IMG/VR virus record: IMGVR_UViG_3300017786_000114
Span: 1 to 26,145 of that record
From: a virus
DNA length: 26,145 nucleotides
Strand: one strand, 5' to 3'
In this document: piece by piece, positions 4,804-26,139 of the stretch
Numbering within the stretch: the stretch's first letter is position 1
Layout: every line of letters starts with the position of its first letter
Notes under the pieces: generated by a model
What the model was told of the DNA's origin: nothing
What the model saw: the letters and a program-made list of their open reading frames with translations, nothing else
The model's database searches: none
Program-made: the position numbers and the translations under genes

Positions 4804-5264
4804 TGAATTTATCAAATAACTTTACATTAGCTGAGCTAACTAAATCACAGACCGCGACCCGCAAAGGTATCGACAATGAACCAGGGACCGTGGAGATTGA
4901 GAATCTTATTCACCTAGCGAAAACCATCCTGCAACCAGTGCGCGAGCACTTCGGTAAACCGGTTATGATATCTTCAGGCTATAGAAGCCCAGCGTTGTGC
5001 GAGGCTATCGGTTCTTCGGCTAAGTCACAACACGCCAAGGGTGAGGCAGCAGACTTTGAAATAGGTGGTGTAGATAATTTAGAACTTGCAACGTGGATCG
5101 CGGACAACTGTGAGTTTGATCAATTGATACTAGAATTTTATGATGGGGTTGACCCCAACTCCGGTTGGATACATTGTTCTAGTAAGATGGAAAACTTACG
5201 AAAACAAACGTTGAAAGCAGAACGAATAGAAGGCCGAACTTCTTATTCTCCAATTCTACTTTAG
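4803..5264 (+). CDS. M15-family peptidase endolysin
   Basis: This 153-residue protein carries the M15 zinc peptidase signature: SGYRS near residue 60, SxHxxGxAxD with zinc ligands His77 and Asp84, and WIH with His124. Glu111 is a plausible catalytic acid. The family cleaves D-Ala/L-Ala bonds in peptidoglycan crosslinks, and phage members of this length are endolysins. There is no signal peptide, so release to the periplasm needs a holin, possibly the membrane protein at 3288. The gene is visibly richer in G+C than its neighbour (about 51% at 4861-5040 against 32% at 4561-4740, counted by eye). Its TAG stop overlaps the TAA stop of the opposing helicase in TTAG. Confidence 0.9.
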   Translation: MNLSNNFTLAELTKSQTATRKGIDNEPGTVEIENLIHLAKTILQPVREHFGKPVMISSGYRSPALCEAIGSSAKSQHAKGEAADFEIGGVDNLELATWIADNCEFDQLILEFYDGVDPNSGWIHCSSKMENLRKQTLKAERIEGRTSYSPILL

Positions 5265-6709
5265 ATCCAATCTTTAAGATCTTCGCCCATAATTTCATTT
5301 GCAATGTTTACCTTTGTTCTAAGTGCTTTAACTATTTTCTCATCTATAGTCTTTTCTGCTATTAAGTCTATGTACAATACGCTGCCAGTCTGGCCGATAC
5401 GATGTGCTCGGTCTTCTGATTGAAGTCTTTTTTCTAAGTCATAGTTATTAGAATAGTAAATAACGGTGTTGGCGGCAGTAAGGGTAATTCCATAACCTCC
5501 AGTCTGTGCATTTCCGACGAAAAAGCGCGCAGGGCCCTTAACTTGCTGAAATCGAGCAATTCCTTCTTGGCGATGGGTAGGGTCCACCCCACCGTGATAT
5601 TCGACTGTAGAGGCTTCTCCGTAAGCTTTTTTTAACTCAGCGACTATAAATTTTAGGTCTTCACGGTAATTTGCCCATATAATTACTTTACCTTCAGTTT
5701 CTTCAATACAATCCATTAATGCCTGTACACGATTGTTTTTTAAATGTGTAACCGTACCATCGTCAGCTTTGAAGTGACCGCAAGTAACTTGATGTAGCCG
5801 CATTAGCTGTGTCATTACATTTACTGTTGACATAATTTTACCTTCTTCAGTAAAAGCCATAGCCATTTGTTTCATCTGTGCATAAACATCTTGCTGTTCT
5901 TTAGTTAGCTCAACAATACGTTTAGTAAATACTTTAGGTGGTAAATCTAAACAATCTTCTTTTAATACTCGGTACGAAAAACTATCTAACTTATCACCTA
6001 GTTCGTCTAGACGTCTATAACTTGTAACTAATTGTACTGAACGACCACCAAAATTTCTCTTGACCATATTTGCATATCGTGCACGGAAACTATAATAAGA
6101 TTGATGCTCTAGATGGTATGGATCTAAAAACTCACATTGACTATATAAGTCAAGTGGAGATTTGGTAACAGGTGAGCCGGTTAAGATTCTACGATACGAC
6201 GCTAGATTCCCTATTTGTAAAATATTTTTTGTACGTTTAGCTGTCGGATTCTTGATTGTCGTTGATTCGTCGATTCCTAATAGGGCTTTCCCTAAGAATA
6301 TGTTAAGGAAACTTCTAGCAAAGTCCAGACCTTTCTTTGTAGAAAATGCTTCTACGTTCATTATCAATACCTTAAGGTCTTCTTTACCATCAAATAATGT
6401 ATCTAACTCAAATTGTTTTTTCTTAGTAATATTAGCTTCCCACAATACTTTAGTATGTTCTACGTGGTCCGGTAAATGTACCGGAAATTCTATGCTGTCC
6501 CAGTTTTTATATACACCTTTAGGGGCAATGATTAAGGCACCGCGGATCGCGCCTTTGTCATAAAGCATAGCTATATTATCAACGAGGACCTTGGATTTAC
6601 CGGTACCCATTTCCATAAATAAAGCAAATGTTTTAGTAGCCCAGGATTTTTTTAAGGCTAGTTTTTGATGCTCATAGGGCTTAGTTTTGTATTTATAATG
6701 GTCTATCAT
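5261..6709 (-). CDS. SNF2-type DNA helicase/translocase
   Basis: This 482-residue SF2 protein is the only gene on the reverse strand. In order it has a Q-motif (PYEHQ, residues 11-15), Walker A MEMGTGKSK (32-40), motif II as DEST instead of DEAH (147-150), motif III TGSP (177-180), and motif VI QSEDRAHRIGQ (430-440) typical of SNF2 proteins. It lacks large accessory domains, as usual for phage members. SNF2 ATPases translocate on duplex DNA. Phage versions are linked to replication, recombination or restart, but the exact job here is unknown. It starts at an ATG 91 bases from the divergent gene at 6801, with no clear ribosome site, and ends against the endolysin with overlapping stop codons. 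Confidence 0.9.
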   Translation of the reverse strand: MIDHYKYKTKPYEHQKLALKKSWATKTFALFMEMGTGKSKVLVDNIAMLYDKGAIRGALIIAPKGVYKNWDSIEFPVHLPDHVEHTKVLWEANITKKKQFELDTLFDGKEDLKVLIMNVEAFSTKKGLDFARSFLNIFLGKALLGIDESTTIKNPTAKRTKNILQIGNLASYRRILTGSPVTKSPLDLYSQCEFLDPYHLEHQSYYSFRARYANMVKRNFGGRSVQLVTSYRRLDELGDKLDSFSYRVLKEDCLDLPPKVFTKRIVELTKEQQDVYAQMKQMAMAFTEEGKIMSTVNVMTQLMRLHQVTCGHFKADDGTVTHLKNNRVQALMDCIEETEGKVIIWANYREDLKFIVAELKKAYGEASTVEYHGGVDPTHRQEGIARFQQVKGPARFFVGNAQTGGYGITLTAANTVIYYSNNYDLEKRLQSEDRAHRIGQTGSVLYIDLIAEKTIDEKIVKALRTKVNIANEIMGEDLKDWI

Positions 6710-6800: not shown

Positions 6801-7202
6801 ATGAAGAATAAAATATTTGAGTTGTATAAACCTAGAAGTCTAGCAGAGTTTTTAGCTTTTAAAGTAGAGAACCCTAAAGAAAAATTTGTTTATGTATTAC
6901 AACACCCCGCGCCTAATATAAATGTATTAAGTGCATCTGAGTTTGGTTACTTAGTTATTTGTTTACCAAAACAAGATAATATTATTTACAGTGCAGCGCC
7001 GTTTGTACGTAAAATGAAAAAAAATTTACAGGATTTTAAACCCGATGATTATATTTTATGTTTGGGTGATCCTTCAATTATTGGGTTATCCACAGCTGTA
7101 GTTAGTGATACTACTAATGGACAATTTAATCTCTTGAAATGGGATAGACAAGAGTATAAATATTATCCCTTAAACATAGACTTATATCAGAAAGAAGAAT
7201 AA
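6801..7202 (+). CDS. Hypothetical phage protein, first gene of the replication module
   Basis: This 133-residue protein has no recognised motif and no membrane segment. The sequence is mixed and globular, with several aromatic residues and a strand-rich centre (residues about 25-65). It is the first gene after the divergent promoter region, and its stop overlaps the next start by one base (TAATG), so it is probably expressed early with the replication genes. I cannot assign a function. Confidence 0.65.
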   Translation: MKNKIFELYKPRSLAEFLAFKVENPKEKFVYVLQHPAPNINVLSASEFGYLVICLPKQDNIIYSAAPFVRKMKKNLQDFKPDDYILCLGDPSIIGLSTAVVSDTTNGQFNLLKWDRQEYKYYPLNIDLYQKEE

Positions 7203-7762
7203 TGAGTAATTTAACACTAGACGATTTAGAAGACGATCAGCAACAGCTGATAGAAAAAACAGACATACAAACATTGGCTTCATATTGCCAAGAGCTACAA
7301 GCACATCAAGAAAAAATTGAAGAACTTGAAGCAACAGTTAAAGAATATAAAGAAAAAGCAGACAAAATTAGTTCAGAGATAATACCTAATTTGCTCGCAG
7401 AGCAAGGGCTATCATCTTTGAAACTCGCTGACGGTAGTGGTGTAGAGGTTAGAAAAGCCTATAGCTGTACTGTAAAAAAAGACTCGGTCGAATCAGCGTA
7501 TGAATGGCTTCGTAACAACGGACTAGGTGATCTTATTAAAAATGAGGTTGCTGTTCAGTTCGGTAAGGGCGAGGATACAAGGGCTAACGATTTGTTAGAA
7601 CTTGCAGTGCAAGAAGGCTTTGAGCCTTCGCAGAAGCAGAAGGTAGAACCTATGACTTTGAAAGCACTCTTTAGAGAGCGTATCGAGGCCGGCCTCGATA
7701 TGCCCTCGGATTATTTTCACACTTTCGTGAAAGATCAAACCAAAATAAGCCGGAAATCGTGA
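7202..7762 (+). CDS. Conserved phage protein with N-terminal coiled coil
   Basis: This is a 186-residue protein. Residues about 25-60 are a long charged helix with heptad character (Glu/Lys/Leu), followed by a strand-rich globular region (about 65-130) and a C-terminal segment ending in basic residues. The overall form resembles a family of small phage replication-module proteins of unknown function (possibly DUF7173-like, from memory only). It sits directly before the likely ssDNA-binding protein and starts by one-base overlap with the preceding stop. A role as a partner of ssDNA-binding or recombination proteins is plausible, but only by context. Confidence 0.65.
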   Translation: MSNLTLDDLEDDQQQLIEKTDIQTLASYCQELQAHQEKIEELEATVKEYKEKADKISSEIIPNLLAEQGLSSLKLADGSGVEVRKAYSCTVKKDSVESAYEWLRNNGLGDLIKNEVAVQFGKGEDTRANDLLELAVQEGFEPSQKQKVEPMTLKALFRERIEAGLDMPSDYFHTFVKDQTKISRKS

Positions 7763-7765
7763 AAC

Positions 7766-7771
7766 AAGGAG
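7766..7771 (+). promoter_or_regulatory. Ribosome binding site deciding the start of the SSB-like gene
   Basis: AAGGAG lies eight bases before the ATG at 7780. It is one of the strongest ribosome sites in the window and favours this start over the upstream GTG at 7759. High translation suits a protein needed in stoichiometric amounts. Confidence 0.7.
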
Positions 7772-7779
7772 AACGAATA

Positions 7780-8556
7780 ATGACACAAGAAAAAGCAATA
7801 AAGAAAAAAGAAGACACAAGCATAGCTTTAGCGAGTATGTTTGAAGCAGATTCTAATACAGGTTTAGATAATATGGGTGCTGAAGATATGGCACTACCTT
7901 TTCTAAGAGTATTAGGACAGCTATCACCCGAGATAAATAAACGGGACGCCAAATATGTTGAAGGTGCAGAAGCAGGTATGATATTTAATACCGTGACTAA
8001 GCAGGCATATGATGGGGAAAAAGGACTTAACATAATCCCAGCTTATTACAAGCGAGAGTATGTTGAGTGGAGTGATAGAGGCCAGGGCACATCCGCTCCG
8101 GTTGCTATACATTCAGTAAGCAGTGGCGTCATTAAAGAGGCTACAAGAGATGCAGGATACAAAGATAGATTACCAAACGGTAATTATCTTGAGAACACTG
8201 CTTCTTATTATGTGCTTACGGAAGATATGCAGACGGCATTAGTTTCTATGAAATCGACTCAACTTAAAGTTAGTCGTAATTGGAACTCAATGATGAACAG
8301 TATCAAACTACAAGGAAAGAATGGTTTGTTTACTCCGGCTTCATATAGTCACGTGTATAACCTTAAGACAGTAGAACAATCTAATGACAAGGGAACTTGG
8401 TATGGTTGGACTATTTCTAAGGTAGGTCCGGTACAGGATAAAAATTTGTACGCGGCCGCTAAAGGTTTTGCAGAATCGGTGAGAGACGGTGATGTGAAAA
8501 CTAAGCATAGTGAAGAAGAAACTGAATCGAAATCAAACGACTCGGTACCATTTTAA
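7780..8556 (+). CDS. Putative single-stranded DNA-binding protein
   Basis: The protein has 258 residues from the ATG at 7780, chosen because AAGGAG (7766-7771) lies eight bases upstream; an in-frame GTG at 7759 overlaps the previous gene and has no such site. The body is strand-rich, with aromatic and basic residues. The last 15 residues are acidic and end in NDSVPF, very like the DIPF-type tip by which bacterial SSB proteins recruit partners. Its place next to primase, helicase and polymerase supports an ssDNA-binding role. I do not see a canonical OB-fold signature, so the assignment rests on the tail, composition and context. A strong hairpin follows the gene. Confidence 0.6.
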   Translation: MTQEKAIKKKEDTSIALASMFEADSNTGLDNMGAEDMALPFLRVLGQLSPEINKRDAKYVEGAEAGMIFNTVTKQAYDGEKGLNIIPAYYKREYVEWSDRGQGTSAPVAIHSVSSGVIKEATRDAGYKDRLPNGNYLENTASYYVLTEDMQTALVSMKSTQLKVSRNWNSMMNSIKLQGKNGLFTPASYSHVYNLKTVEQSNDKGTWYGWTISKVGPVQDKNLYAAAKGFAESVRDGDVKTKHSEEETESKSNDSVPF

Positions 8557-8607: not shown

Positions 8608-8853
8608 ATGAAAAGAAGCAGAGAATCTTTATATCAGATGCGATACTATCGCAAGAAAACTATGGATAGTTTACGGTCTGTTGTTAAAAAATTAAAAGAA
8701 GAAAAAAAATTATTTATGGACAGTCCCGAGGGAATCGCCTATAAAAAAAGAAAGTTAAAAGAATCCGGTTATCAACAAGCATACCGAGAAAAGAATAGAG
8801 AGAAAAATAGAAAGTATCAGAAAGAATATTATAAACTATATGGACAAATTTAA
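8608..8853 (+). CDS. Small basic coiled-coil-like protein
   Basis: This 81-residue protein is very rich in Lys, Arg, Glu and Tyr, with long amphipathic helices throughout and no hydrophobic core visible. It starts 11 bases after the hairpin and overlaps the primase gene by 14 bases, implying coupled translation. Basic helical proteins of this size in replication modules often bind nucleic acid, but there is no recognised motif. The function is unknown. Confidence 0.6.
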   Translation: MKRSRESLYQMRYYRKKTMDSLRSVVKKLKEEKKLFMDSPEGIAYKKRKLKESGYQQAYREKNREKNRKYQKEYYKLYGQI

Positions 8854-10372
8854 GAATATTTTTGAAGGCAATAAGAGTGCCTATGGTCAACTAATATTAA
8901 CTGGTGAAACTACTGACAAAGGTAAAGCAGTTGGTAAAGCATTTATTAAAAAAGAACCTATCCCCGACAAGCTATGGCAAGATCATTTAGATGGTAAGGA
9001 TCCAGCATTGGGTGTCATACCTATTAATGAAAGTAATTTATGTAAGTGGGGCTGTATTGATGTTGATGAATATTCAGGATTAGATCATAAAAAAATAATC
9101 GATTCAATTAAACTACAGAACTTTCCGTTGGTAACTTTTAGATCAAAGTCTGGTGGTGCACATTTATTTTTATTTACAAAAGATTTTATTCCTGCTGTTT
9201 TAATGCAGGCAAAATTAAAAGCTATGTCAGAAGCATTGGGGTTTGGTGGTAGCGAAATATTTCCAAAACAAACTGAGATTCTAGTAGAACGTGGTGACAC
9301 TGGTAACTTTTTAAATCTACCCTATCACAATGGTACGCGTGGTTTACGTTATGCTATGGATGCAGAAGGTGTAGCTATTAAACTAGATGATTTTTATACA
9401 TACTATGAACAAGTTGCTTTAACTGAAAAACAAGTACAAGAAATTATTATTCAAAAAGACAAGATTGTTAAAGTTGAAGAGGCTTTTAAAGATGGACCGC
9501 CGTGTCTAAATAAACTAGCAGCAGATGGTTTTGGTGATGGCTCTAGAAATAATGGTTTATTTAATATTGCTGTTTACAGGAAACAAGCTGATCCCGATAA
9601 CTGGGAAGATAAAGTTATGGAAGATAATCAGACACATATGGACCCACCATTAGGTTTTCAAGAAGTAAAACAATTATTAGGATCAATAGGTAAGCGTGGT
9701 TACGATAAATATAGATGTAAAGACCAACCTATCTGCGGTGTCTGTAATGCTGCAAAGTGTAGAACTAAAAAGTTTGGTGTAGGCTTTGAAGAAGAACAGA
9801 TGCCAGAACTAGATACGTTGACAGTTATAAACTCTGATCCACCGCAATGGTTTTTAAATGTTGCTGGGAAGAGAGTTGTGTTTACTGCTGAAGAATTACA
9901 TAATCCAAATTTATTTTCTATCGTTTGTATGAAGCAAGCAAAAGTTATTACACTTATACCAAAAGCCAAAGACTGGCGTGAAGTTTATTTAAAACCTTTA
10001 ATGGCAGGTTTAGTTGAGATTGAGGCATTAGAATCTTTGAGTCCACAAGTACAAATAGAAAATTTATTATATGATTTTACTGTACATAGATCTAAAGCCA
10101 GAACTAAAGAAGATATCTTAAACAAAATAGCTTGGACTGATGAAGGCTTTACTTATTTTAGAATGAGAGATTTTTATGCTTTTGCTAAGCGTAACAATTG
10201 GGACATAGATTTACAAAAGACAGGTAACTTGATTAGACAACTAAAAGATATTTATGTAGATGAGGTTAGAATGAAACTAAAAAGTCAGACACCTCACCTT
10301 GTTAAAATAAAAGCATTGAAAGATGGTGGTGCAGAAGTTAGTCGTGTAACTTATCAGGAGTCACCGTTTTAA
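8840..10372 (+). CDS. Archaeo-eukaryotic-type DNA primase
   Basis: This 510-residue protein would make primers for the phage polymerase. The AEP catalytic core is visible: IDVDEY gives the metal-binding Asp74 and Asp76, SGGAHLFLF gives His108, and EIFPKQ (139-144) with NFLNLPYHNG (156-165) matches the TOTE/phage AEP class. After it comes a PriCT-like region with GSRNNGLFN (about 234-242) and a cysteine cluster at Cys293, Cys299, Cys302 and Cys307, possibly with Cys222, able to bind zinc or an iron-sulfur cluster. The C-terminal 170 residues are unassigned and could touch a helicase. There is no fused helicase, unlike T7 gp4. It overlaps the next gene by one base (TAATG). Confidence 0.85.
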   Translation: MDKFKNIFEGNKSAYGQLILTGETTDKGKAVGKAFIKKEPIPDKLWQDHLDGKDPALGVIPINESNLCKWGCIDVDEYSGLDHKKIIDSIKLQNFPLVTFRSKSGGAHLFLFTKDFIPAVLMQAKLKAMSEALGFGGSEIFPKQTEILVERGDTGNFLNLPYHNGTRGLRYAMDAEGVAIKLDDFYTYYEQVALTEKQVQEIIIQKDKIVKVEEAFKDGPPCLNKLAADGFGDGSRNNGLFNIAVYRKQADPDNWEDKVMEDNQTHMDPPLGFQEVKQLLGSIGKRGYDKYRCKDQPICGVCNAAKCRTKKFGVGFEEEQMPELDTLTVINSDPPQWFLNVAGKRVVFTAEELHNPNLFSIVCMKQAKVITLIPKAKDWREVYLKPLMAGLVEIEALESLSPQVQIENLLYDFTVHRSKARTKEDILNKIAWTDEGFTYFRMRDFYAFAKRNNWDIDLQKTGNLIRQLKDIYVDEVRMKLKSQTPHLVKIKALKDGGAEVSRVTYQESPF

Positions 10373-14603: not shown

Positions 14604-14777
14604 ATGGTGACAATAGCAGATAGAATGAAACGCATTAATAACTGTCGAGATATGTTAACTAAAGTAACGTGTCCACGAATGCGGTTAATGTGGAAAAGAA
14701 ATTATGAAAAATTATTAAAAAATTATTGGGAGGAAGAAGGTGAAAGAATTCTTAACGCCGCTGGGCAAGTACACTAA
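14604..14777 (+). CDS. Small basic hypothetical protein
   Basis: The frame gives 57 residues, rich in Arg, Lys, Met and Asn, with two cysteines (14 and 23). A modest GAGG ribosome site lies about ten bases upstream. It overlaps the next gene by 38 bases, which is more than usual here, so confidence is limited. A tiny preceding frame (14572-14610) ends across its start and might couple its translation. The function is unknown. Confidence 0.4.
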   Translation: MVTIADRMKRINNCRDMLTKVTCPRMRLMWKRNYEKLLKNYWEEEGERILNAAGQVH

Positions 14778-14961
14778 TTTTGTATTATTACTACTAATAC
14801 TGCATTTTTGTATAACAGTTATGGTTGTAAATTTTAGATATATTGATAGACTCAACAATACAATAGACACGATGTGGCACGAAATTGAACAGGTGAAAGA
14901 TACAAATATACAACTGTACCAATTTATCGAGGAGCACGGAGATGACATTAAAGGACGATAA
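14740..14961 (+). CDS. Single-pass membrane protein with coiled-coil tail
   Basis: This 73-residue protein starts at GTG, behind a good GGGAGG ribosome site (about 14728-14733). Residues about 13-33 are a membrane segment (VLLLLILHF core), and residues about 34-66 are a charged helix with coiled-coil character. It could be a membrane anchor, spanin-like or superinfection-exclusion protein, and the sequence does not decide between these. The topology resembles the protein at 23602 but without clear sequence identity. It overlaps the next gene by 20 bases. Confidence 0.6.
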   Translation: MKEFLTPLGKYTNFVLLLLILHFCITVMVVNFRYIDRLNNTIDTMWHEIEQVKDTNIQLYQFIEEHGDDIKGR

Positions 14962-20340: not shown

Positions 20341-21027
20341 ATGGATTTAATTAATATAAATAAATATGCTTATCCCAGTAGTTCACGCGCTAGTATATCA
20401 GGTCTTAGACATTATGCTATTGATGGTACTGAGGAAAGACTACCTTCCGTTACTACGGTTATTGGGCAGACTCAAGAAGAAGATAAAGCTGCCAGTCTAC
20501 AAAGATGGCGCGATCGTATTGGTCACAAAGCCGCGGCAAAAATTACGCACGACTCTAGTACCCGTGGTACAGCGATGCATTTATATTTGGAAAAATATTG
20601 TTTGGGTGAAGGTTATATGGATCTCACAGACTTGGGTCTGCAAGCTAAAAAAATGGCTGAAAAAATTGTAGACAAAGGTATTGATAACCGGATCGATGAA
20701 GTTTACGGCAACGAAGCCACGTTATATTACCCAGGGTTGTATGCCGGTAGCTGCGATTTGATTGCACGGCTGGACGGTAAACTAACCATTATTGATTTTA
20801 AACAATCTAATAAGCCAAAACAAAAAGAATGGATCCGGGACTACGAGCTTCAAATGGCCGCATATGCAATGGCCCACGACTGTGTGTATGATACGGAAAT
20901 TGATTGTGCGGTGAATATGATCTGTACGCCAGATTTATATTATCAAGAATTTAGAATCGAAGGCGAAGATTTACGCCAAGCGAAATATGATTTTTTAAGG
21001 AGATTAGATAAATTTTATGCCAAGTAA
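20341..21027 (+). CDS. PD-(D/E)XK (RecB/Cas4-type) exonuclease
   Basis: This 228-residue nuclease has RGTAMH (His80), NEATLYY (Glu125), GSCDL (Asp139), IDFK (Asp152, Lys154) and the QMAAY helix (Gln171, Tyr175), the ordered set of RecB-type nucleases. It lacks the cysteine cluster of Cas4 proteins. Phage members usually resect DNA for recombination or break down host DNA. It starts two bases after the TauD-like stop, so it is read with the metabolic cassette although it functionally belongs with replication. It overlaps the next small gene by 11 bases. Confidence 0.88.
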   Translation: MDLININKYAYPSSSRASISGLRHYAIDGTEERLPSVTTVIGQTQEEDKAASLQRWRDRIGHKAAAKITHDSSTRGTAMHLYLEKYCLGEGYMDLTDLGLQAKKMAEKIVDKGIDNRIDEVYGNEATLYYPGLYAGSCDLIARLDGKLTIIDFKQSNKPKQKEWIRDYELQMAAYAMAHDCVYDTEIDCAVNMICTPDLYYQEFRIEGEDLRQAKYDFLRRLDKFYAK

Positions 21028-21178: not shown

Positions 21179-21396
21179 AAATGTTTTTTGTAATTACTGT
21201 AATGTTAACATTTAATAATGCTGACATACGGGTTGAACGTGAATATAAACAGAAAAGCTTCCAGGATACCTGGTCTTGTCACGAATTCATAGCAGAAAAT
21301 AAAATGACGTTGTTACTACCACACATACAAGCATACGGGGATAATTTACGTGGGTTTGAGTTTTATTGTGAGTCTAGATATGCGGAGGAAGTGTGA
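21175..21396 (+). CDS. Small secreted-type protein with cysteines
   Basis: The protein has 73 residues from the ATG that overlaps the previous stop. The first 14 residues (MKMFFVITVMLTFN) look like a short signal peptide or membrane anchor. The exported part has two cysteines, in SCHEF and FYCES, which could pair. A comparable layout appears in the protein at 23972. No function is known. Periplasmic or envelope targets such as lysis timing or exclusion are possible. Its stop overlaps the following GTG start (GTGA). Confidence 0.5.
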   Translation: MKMFFVITVMLTFNNADIRVEREYKQKSFQDTWSCHEFIAENKMTLLLPHIQAYGDNLRGFEFYCESRYAEEV

Positions 21397-21833
21397 ACGC
21401 TTATAGCAATGGTGAAATAGACGCAATTAACCGGATTAATCGGTCGGGTAAACTGTTTAAAGAACCGTTGAGCGCGGCTCGCGGAGCTTATTATTCTTTT
21501 GACGCCGAAAATAACGACAATATAGTAGAGATTAAACGTAGAAACTTCACAAGTGATCATTTTTTTGCACAAGAAGGTGTAATTATAGAACGTTCTAAGT
21601 ACAATGATCTTATGACAATAGCTGAAAACAACAATAAAAGGGCTTTATATTGTAATATATTCACGGATCGTAAGGCGGTTATATGGAATTTATCTGAAAT
21701 GACAACAAATAACTATGATTTTGGGTGGCATAAAAAAGGTATGAACAGAAGAACTTTTGAGTCTGAGGATAAAATAGATAAAAGTGTTGCATTATTGCAA
21801 CTATCAGACGCTACGGTTGAGGCTACAGTATAG
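21393..21833 (+). CDS. Hypothetical protein, possible PD-(D/E)XK-like nuclease fold
   Basis: This 146-residue protein starts at GTG, coupled to the previous gene. A segment with Asp37 in SFDAEN and IVEIKRR (Glu46, Lys48), followed by a helix-strand region with CNIF, resembles the D...ExK core of restriction-endonuclease folds. The match is short, and I would not assign catalysis from it. The C-terminal ATVEATV lies within the left 29-bp inverted repeat that bounds the noncoding element; the stop codon is inside the repeat. If that element inserted here, the original C-terminus may have been different. Confidence 0.5.
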   Translation: MNAYSNGEIDAINRINRSGKLFKEPLSAARGAYYSFDAENNDNIVEIKRRNFTSDHFFAQEGVIIERSKYNDLMTIAENNNKRALYCNIFTDRKAVIWNLSEMTTNNYDFGWHKKGMNRRTFESEDKIDKSVALLQLSDATVEATV

Positions 21834-21845
21834 GGAGATTTAGGG
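21817..21845 (+). repeat. Left 29-bp inverted repeat of noncoding element
   Basis: This repeat reads TTGAGGCT, three bases, GTATAGGG, then AGA and TTTAGGG. It matches the right copy at 22049-22077, read on the opposite strand, at 23 of 29 positions without gaps. It overlaps the end of the upstream gene; TATAGGGAGA inside it also equals the end of the T7 promoter consensus. Confidence 0.75.
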
Positions 21846-21882
21846 GGTACCTATGTTTATTTTTAACGAACTTGAAATGACT

Positions 21883-21971
21883 ACGGTAACGGTAGATTTA
21901 AGGTTAAGTGTATGAAAGTATTAATGAAAAGGTCTACCGTTTTACTTTTTGAAAACGGTAGAAACGGTAGA
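21883..21971. repeat. ACGGTAGA motif array with 11-bp inverted repeat
   Basis: ACGGTA occurs in tandem at 21883-21888 and 21889-21894. ACGGTAGA occurs at 21889-21896, 21955-21962 and 21964-21971, and as its complement TCTACCGT at 21933-21940. TCTACCGTTTT (21933-21943) and AAAACGGTAGA (21952-21962) are a perfect 11-bp inverted repeat with an eight-base gap. This layout is typical of an operator or iteron cluster; the binding protein is unknown. Confidence 0.7.
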
Positions 21972-22048
21972 GTAGATTCAGTTTTTGGCAGTTTTCTCCC
22001 ACTTGGCGTGCGAGAGCTTTTTTCTCATTTTTTACGAACACTAGGGGT

Positions 22049-22077
22049 CCCTAATTTCCCCTATACCACAGCCTCAA
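22049..22077 (-). repeat. Right 29-bp inverted repeat of noncoding element
   Basis: On the reverse strand it reads TTGAGGCT, three bases, GTATAGGG, then GAA and ATTAGGG, matching the left copy at 23 of 29 positions. It ends 18 bases before the next gene. No target-site duplication is evident outside the two copies. Confidence 0.75.
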
Positions 22078-22095
22078 ATACAGGTATAAAATAAT

Positions 22096-22371
22096 ATGAG
22101 CAATGAAATACCACCAATGGTCAATGTAGTCTGGTTGGATACTAATGAATGTAGTATGTCCACGTGGCAAAGCAAAGAAGAGTTGTTAGATAGTAAATTT
22201 TGTACAGTTGATTCACTCGGTTATCTTATTGCTGATAAAGAGGATTGTGTAATCATTGCAGGCGATAAAGATACTTACAATAAAGACGATATTTATGGTA
22301 GAGCCCAAGTAATACCTAAAGGTGTGGTGCTAGACATACAATTCTTATCCAAAAATGAAGACAATAACTGA
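22096..22371 (+). CDS. Conserved hypothetical phage protein
   Basis: This 91-residue protein is acidic and globular, with strand-rich character: VNVVWLDT near residue 10, a helix around 24-30, then VDSLGYLI and CVIIAGDK. Proteins of this form are common in phages, often near replication or packaging genes, without known function. It starts soon after the inverted-repeat element, so that element may control its transcription. It overlaps the next gene by 17 bases. Confidence 0.65.
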   Translation: MSNEIPPMVNVVWLDTNECSMSTWQSKEELLDSKFCTVDSLGYLIADKEDCVIIAGDKDTYNKDDIYGRAQVIPKGVVLDIQFLSKNEDNN

Positions 22372-25761: not shown

Positions 25762-26139
25762 CTGAAAAATGAATCAAAACTTTGGCAAAAAGTTAAGAAA
25801 AATACACCTAATATAACCTGGACAAGAGTAGAGTCTTGGGCCAGTTTTGGCTTTCCTGATCTGGTTGGCTATACTGAAAACTCTGGATTTTTTACCGTTG
25901 AATTAAAGGTAACTAAGGGTAATAAAATAACCTTCTCACCACACCAAATTGCATTCCATATCAAGCACCCGACAAACACCTGGATCATAGCCACCACCCA
26001 CGATCAAAGACTCCCGATACTTTTTCCAGGCTCCGCGATCCTTGCGCTTGCGGCCGACGGCTTGAGCGCTTGCGGGCCCACCCGCCCTGTGCCCTGGAAC
26101 GAGCTTGAGGCCCAGCTTGTGCCTGAGCCCTGTGGATAA
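25762..26139 (+). CDS. VRR-NUC domain nuclease with probable CTG start
   Basis: The frame gives 125 residues from CTG. The PD-(D/E)XK core of VRR-NUC proteins is clear: WTRVESWASFGFPDLVGY (Asp34 in the PDL motif) and FFTVELKVTKGNKITFSPHQ (in part; Glu48 and Lys50 of ELK), then a helix QIAFH. These nucleases act on branched DNA or as nickases. In phages they sit near the terminase, as here. In-frame there is a stop at 25732-25734 and no ATG, GTG or TTG until far inside, so initiation at CTG, behind GGAG at 25750, is the best reading. The last third is GC-rich, yet the protein still looks like the family's C-terminus. A DnaA box overlaps the stop. Confidence 0.8.
   Translation: MKNESKLWQKVKKNTPNITWTRVESWASFGFPDLVGYTENSGFFTVELKVTKGNKITFSPHQIAFHIKHPTNTWIIATTHDQRLPILFPGSAILALAADGLSACGPTRPVPWNELEAQLVPEPCG
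26131..26139 (-). promoter_or_regulatory. DnaA box, perfect TTATCCACA on the reverse strand
   Basis: TGTGGATAA on the forward strand is the complement of TTATCCACA, the strong DnaA-box form. It includes the stop of the VRR-NUC gene. The window then ends in CTTGTG, which could begin a second tandem box. It lies in a segment of about 67% G+C (26031-26145), unlike the rest of the window. Confidence 0.6.

Follow-up and report, generated by a model that had tools for sequence, protein, structure and literature searches.

A 239-bp element with inverted ends lies downstream of a phage exonuclease gene

The stretch of viral DNA analysed here (26,145 nucleotides, hereafter the window) carries a 239-bp element downstream of a PD-(D/E)XK exonuclease gene, as well as a gene for an archaeo-eukaryotic primase (AEP), which together with those for a SNF2-type helicase and Pam3 gp33/gp34-like proteins (5261-6709 and 7202-8556) makes up a conserved replication block (Table 1). 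Between a 95-aa gene and the element lies a 146-aa gene of unknown family (21393-21833; 646-1083 in contig L029), seen only in the window's close clade, and, as originally predicted, its stop codon falls within the left copy of the inverted repeat. Directly after the element, the protein of a 91-aa gene (22096-22371) is 100% identical to those of contigs L047 and L053, whereas the neighbouring genes in these contigs are mostly 56-92% identical; in most relatives the same slot holds an HExxH-motif protein, and the arrangement looks like a recent cassette exchange beside the element.

Table 1. Features of the element and associated replication genes, in window coordinates
Feature	Position	Strand	Basis or remark
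AEP primase (AEP-TOTE, PriCT-1-like), candidate primase for the putative origin	8840..10372	+	AEP-TOTE and PHROG primase matches
PD-(D/E)XK exonuclease gene, constant upstream neighbour	20341..21027	+	Relatives
Outer block TTGAGGCT, left	21817..21824	+	Copy on both sides only in close relatives
Entire conserved element (239 bp from one outer TATAG boundary to the other)	21828..22066		Near-constant length (see text); exonuclease gene always upstream
Left end GTATAGGGAGATTTAGGGGGTACCTATGTTT; the upstream 146-aa gene terminates within it (stop codon 21831-21833)	21828..21858	+	Sequence, relatives
First iteron pair ACGGTA-ACGGTAGA	21883..21896	+	Relatives show CGGTAGTGGTGGTAA here
AT-rich spacer between iterons	21897..21932		TTAA...TATGA...TTATTAA conserved in close family
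Inverted iteron ACGGTAGA	21933..21940	-	Sequence
Second iteron pair ACGGTAGA-A-ACGGTAGA	21955..21971	+	9-bp period, P about 0.01 versus shuffles
Conserved block CAGTTTTTGGCAGTTTT	21979..21995	+	Relatives
Conserved GC-rich block CACTTGGCGTGCGAG	22000..22014	+	CTTGRCGCGCGAG-like in distant relatives
Right end GTATAGGGGAAATTAGGGACCCCTAGTGTTC	22036..22066	-	Sequence, relatives
Outer block TTGAGGCT, right	22070..22077	-	Copy on both sides only in close relatives

The element was originally predicted as a stretch of 261 bp delimited by a 29-bp inverted repeat, which we recover between 21817-21845 (+) and 22049-22077 (-) with 23 of 29 positions identical and no gaps. Both TTGAGGCTNNNGTATAGGG and TATAGGG occur in the window at these two ends only. 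By itself the repeat is nevertheless only mildly unusual and constitutes weak evidence, because a search for any 29-bp inverted repeat with arms at most 300 bp apart across the whole 26-kb window also reached 23/29 in one of 12 dinucleotide shuffles; what renders the repeat convincing is its conservation in relatives. The 29-bp match itself stands, but the unit conserved across the family is shorter on the outer side, the outer blocks being restricted to close relatives, and the general family end reads TATAG-(GTGGAGATTTGACCC-like)-N4-TGTT (also written TATAGTGGAGATTTGACCC-N4-TGTT), pointing inward at both sides.

Between the ends, the anticipated motif array consists of five ACGGTA cores, the sole such cluster in the window. 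Two forward iterons are followed by an AT-rich spacer of ~33 bp, one inverted and two further forward copies, and then by the CAGTTTTTGGCAGTTTT and CACTTGGCGTGCGAG blocks, so that a 9-bp-period array in both orientations around AT-rich DNA precedes CACTTGGCGYGCGAG. Period-9 repetition exceeds shuffles in many elements, and the AT-rich spacer and T-runs beside the repeats are to be read against a genome that is AT-rich as a whole. Of 32 representatives, 6 contain an exact match to the IHF consensus, against 1.05 expected, and each of these falls within the inter-iteron spacer; the window's own spacer matches with one mismatch, and the consensus is weak in the window's group. Local dyads (at least 6/7) are modestly enriched at the ends, with nine on the right (2.7 expected) and five on the left (2.4 expected). 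Helical phasing of the element length was considered and rejected: shifts near two turns (216/217 and 258/259) hint at it, but others (241-244) are inconsistent. As predicted, the interior harbours no convincing gene; a 60-aa ORF at 21912-22094 was discarded as a conserved gene, since it keeps neither frame nor length among relatives.

The element is conserved at a constant position in marine phages

Relatives were collected through neighbouring genes and the end consensus, a profile search yielding 45 distinct paired-end elements to which further, more divergent ones were added by eye; an exact search of IMG/VR returned near-identical contigs only. More than 40 distinct marine phage contigs have this ~238-bp element at one and the same position, closely following the PD-(D/E)XK exonuclease gene, with its two ends conserved and paired. 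The exonuclease gene lies upstream and on the same strand in all 28 records placed, with a median gap of about 260 bp. Despite interior indels, 35 of 46 elements keep an end-to-end distance of 237-239 bp. Each long record has a single copy of the element, with no scattering of the end motif through long genomes, and a search of 84,980 bacterial and archaeal genomes found no exact copy of the 19-bp consensus end.

From phage to phage the sequence of the two ends changes, yet they continue to match each other. In L018 they agree at 20/20 positions (TATAGTAGAATATTTGACCC), in L120 again at 20/20 but with an unrelated sequence, and in L162 at 16/20 with a third sequence type, whereas in the window's clade (L029, L004) both have shifted jointly to a TTTAGGG-like type. 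The proposal of drift in two copies that keep short blocks comes close to this pattern, in which the ends change together. The iteron sequence, for its part, is phage-specific: CGGTAGNGG, CGGTATTTN, TTTGGTACT, TTGGCACAC, GGCACTTTN, GGACATGGT, GGATACATG, CTACTACAC and GTCGCA are found among others. In a simple cluster count over eleven records, in four of which the motif used fell below threshold, iteron clusters where detected lie only at or right beside the element, as expected of clustered sites present once per replicon.

The primase, polymerase and exonuclease match those of phages 023Pt_psg01, HTVC027P and HTVC023P, and by its sequence the source phage belongs with the HTVC023P-type pelagiphages and their allies; the element family as a whole belongs to marine phages that are relatives of the SAR11 phages. 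Phage 023Pt_psg01 carries the element in the same place by the replication module. The isolate HTVC027P shows the iteron, IHF-like and GCGCG modules alone; clear inverted ends were not found there (15/20, AT-rich). Neither distant blastn nor HExxH-protein searches revealed a close relative among isolate phages.

Suggestive co-variation of the inner sequence with AEP and gp34

Of the 32 records searched, 24 yielded the AEP primase; the remaining ones are fragments. Its AlphaFold model is mediocre (pLDDT 66), and the best PDB matches of this model are a CRISPR-associated PrimPol and RepB' of plasmid RSF1010, with a weaker match to the S-2L PrimPol. Across 14 genomes, the inner sequence of the element correlates best with the identity of AEP and of its neighbour gp34, and hardly at all with that of UvrD or PolA; linkage confounds the AEP/gp34 co-variation, which is suggestive only.

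In genome G008 (L229), the UvrD-like helicase, from 16670 onward, is only 39% identical while most other replication proteins are at 68-88%, and the C-terminal part of its AEP is also more diverged, suggesting that these two change together. As the iterons of G008 and G006 are unchanged despite this strong divergence, the AEP C-terminus and UvrD were both rejected as candidate iteron readers.

Discussion

We favour, with moderate confidence, the view that the element is the replication origin, of iteron type, of HTVC023P-type phages and their allies. The same element adjoins the replication module in every record placed, its ends are matched yet varying, its length is near fixed and its iterons are phage-specific; furthermore, most records encode an AEP primase whose model matches PrimPols including RepB'. 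From these features we infer an origin whose iterons, to either side of the AT-rich spacer, would be recognised by an initiator specific to the phage; in many members the spacer itself may be occupied by host IHF or another protein that bends DNA. DNA would then open at the AT-rich region, where the phage replisome (AEP primase, helicases and PolA) would start. On opposite strands and a near-constant ~238 bp apart, the inverted ends would serve a single protein as a matched pair of sites, at which synthesis of the two strands plausibly starts, by analogy with ssiA/ssiB, used by the RepB' primase of RSF1010.

Replicon-specific short repeats beside AT-rich DNA are shared with the iteron origins of lambda (ori) and of plasmids P1, R6K and pSC101. 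Such origins often include an IHF site, the combination of iterons and a bending protein being standard, and their repeats differ between replicons (PMC5043065). The phage element departs from them in its 9-bp period (as compared to about 19-22 bp), in having repeats in both orientations, and in the matched inverted ends that flank these at a near-fixed distance. At the RSF1010 oriV, RepC binds iterons and RepA exposes ssiA/ssiB, at which RepB' primes (PMC4234260). The phage element likewise combines iterons, two candidate primase start sites on opposite strands and an AEP-type primase encoded by the replicon, the predicted structure of which hits RepB'; unlike in RSF1010, however, the inverted sites flank the iterons ~238 bp apart, end hairpins are weakly supported, and no RepC or RepA relative is among the proteins identified here.

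The original prediction listed a replication or packaging site among its options, and the conserved place by replication genes, the iteron array and the matched ends support that option. The main rival to an origin is accordingly a pac site, at which the small terminase would bind the repeats, IHF would bend the DNA between them and packaging would start near an end. At phage lambda cosB, the small terminase reads repeats, between which IHF bends the DNA; the element resembles cosB and phage pac sites in its repeats, its IHF-like site and the proximity of terS (terminase small subunit), located downstream in all records that yielded it, and repeats of variable specificity would fit. We nevertheless consider packaging unlikely, and favour the replication module, because the distance and orientation of terS vary (0.3-0.6 kb and opposite strand in one record set, 1.6-6.1 kb and same strand in the other), whereas the exonuclease stays adjacent and on the same strand. 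In addition, no partial correlation links terS identity to the inner sequence (-0.13, over only 28 pairs). Contigs run straight through the element, so that it is no fixed virion end, and a cos-type packaging end is disfavoured on the same grounds.

Two outward promoters that share an operator, one on each side of a regulator-binding array, appear improbable. The right end of some relatives reads TTGACA-N17-TACTAT (L014), abuts the ribosome-binding site of the downstream gene and could double as a promoter. Neither end of the element in the window carries a sigma-70-like site, though, so that the paired promoters of the original prediction find no support there; left ends are no better than shuffles (median P 0.72), a leftward transcript would be antisense to the upstream genes, and the end motif does not recur elsewhere in the manner of a phage promoter. 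Outward sigma-70 promoters as a general feature were thus rejected, both the left ends and the window scoring at shuffle level.

Still less probable is an RNA structure closed by a stem between the two ends. The ends do co-vary, and the fold of the window strand is better than that of shuffles (z -3.6), but G-U to A-C mismatches stand at 33:40, without the strand bias that covariation in an RNA would leave; the family consensus fold reaches only -8.25 kcal/mol (covariation term -0.64), Rfam yields no match, and RNA structure predicts neither iteron turnover nor fixed length. In the light of the mismatch ratio and the weak family fold, it appears to be as DNA that the ends are kept matched. Finally, a recombination, partition or mobile element can largely be dismissed: repeats and an IHF-like site resemble attP or parS in outline, and terminal inverted repeats those of the miniature mobile element (MITE) suggested originally, but six long records contain neither a tyrosine integrase (the one integrase family searched) nor a ParA-type ATPase, while the single copy per record at a constant locus, the lack of exact end copies in prokaryote genomes, and immediate flanks that are inverted rather than directly duplicated all speak against a MITE.

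Several observations weigh against the origin reading itself. Iterons are shared by genomes with diverged AEP C-termini and UvrD (G008 and G006), terS is nearby, the AEP model is mediocre, and the IHF match is weak in the window's own group. A pair of DnaA boxes at the window's 3' end also counts against it and may possibly mark another origin, though one not conserved in relatives: exact boxes (TTATCCACA) are found at 26131-26139 (-) in the window, at 6479 and 6510 in L001, at 237 and 268 in L002, and at 53215 and 53297 in G001, and are absent from most relatives. They belong to a GC-rich tandem repeat with a 31-bp unit, located at the end of the window and immediately beyond it, and three contigs are interrupted there or close by. 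GC skew is uniform along the genome, with no switch at the element, and is thus uninformative as an origin marker.

In line with the original remark that the predictor knew of no described phage element with this sequence, literature on HTVC027P, pelagiphage origins, and AEP combined with iterons yielded no description of it; the HTVC027P transcriptome paper mentions neither origin nor promoters, and no paper describing an origin in HTVC023P-type phages was found in the literature searched. A further-reaching proposal, which we regard as doubtful, is that the element represents a new class of origin in abundant marine phages, with a fast-changing, phage-specific iteron core that would give each lineage its own specificity, set between two inverted sites that match, change slowly and keep a near-fixed distance, and from which an AEP primase would start both strands.

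HTVC023P-type phages are a widespread pelagiphage group, and precise candidate origins are now at hand in the growable isolate HTVC027P, at 14,739-14,953, and in 023Pt_psg01, so that replication initiation in a phage with an AEP primase becomes testable. The changing iterons suggest origin-specificity groups, which could become relevant when several phages infect the same SAR11 cell.
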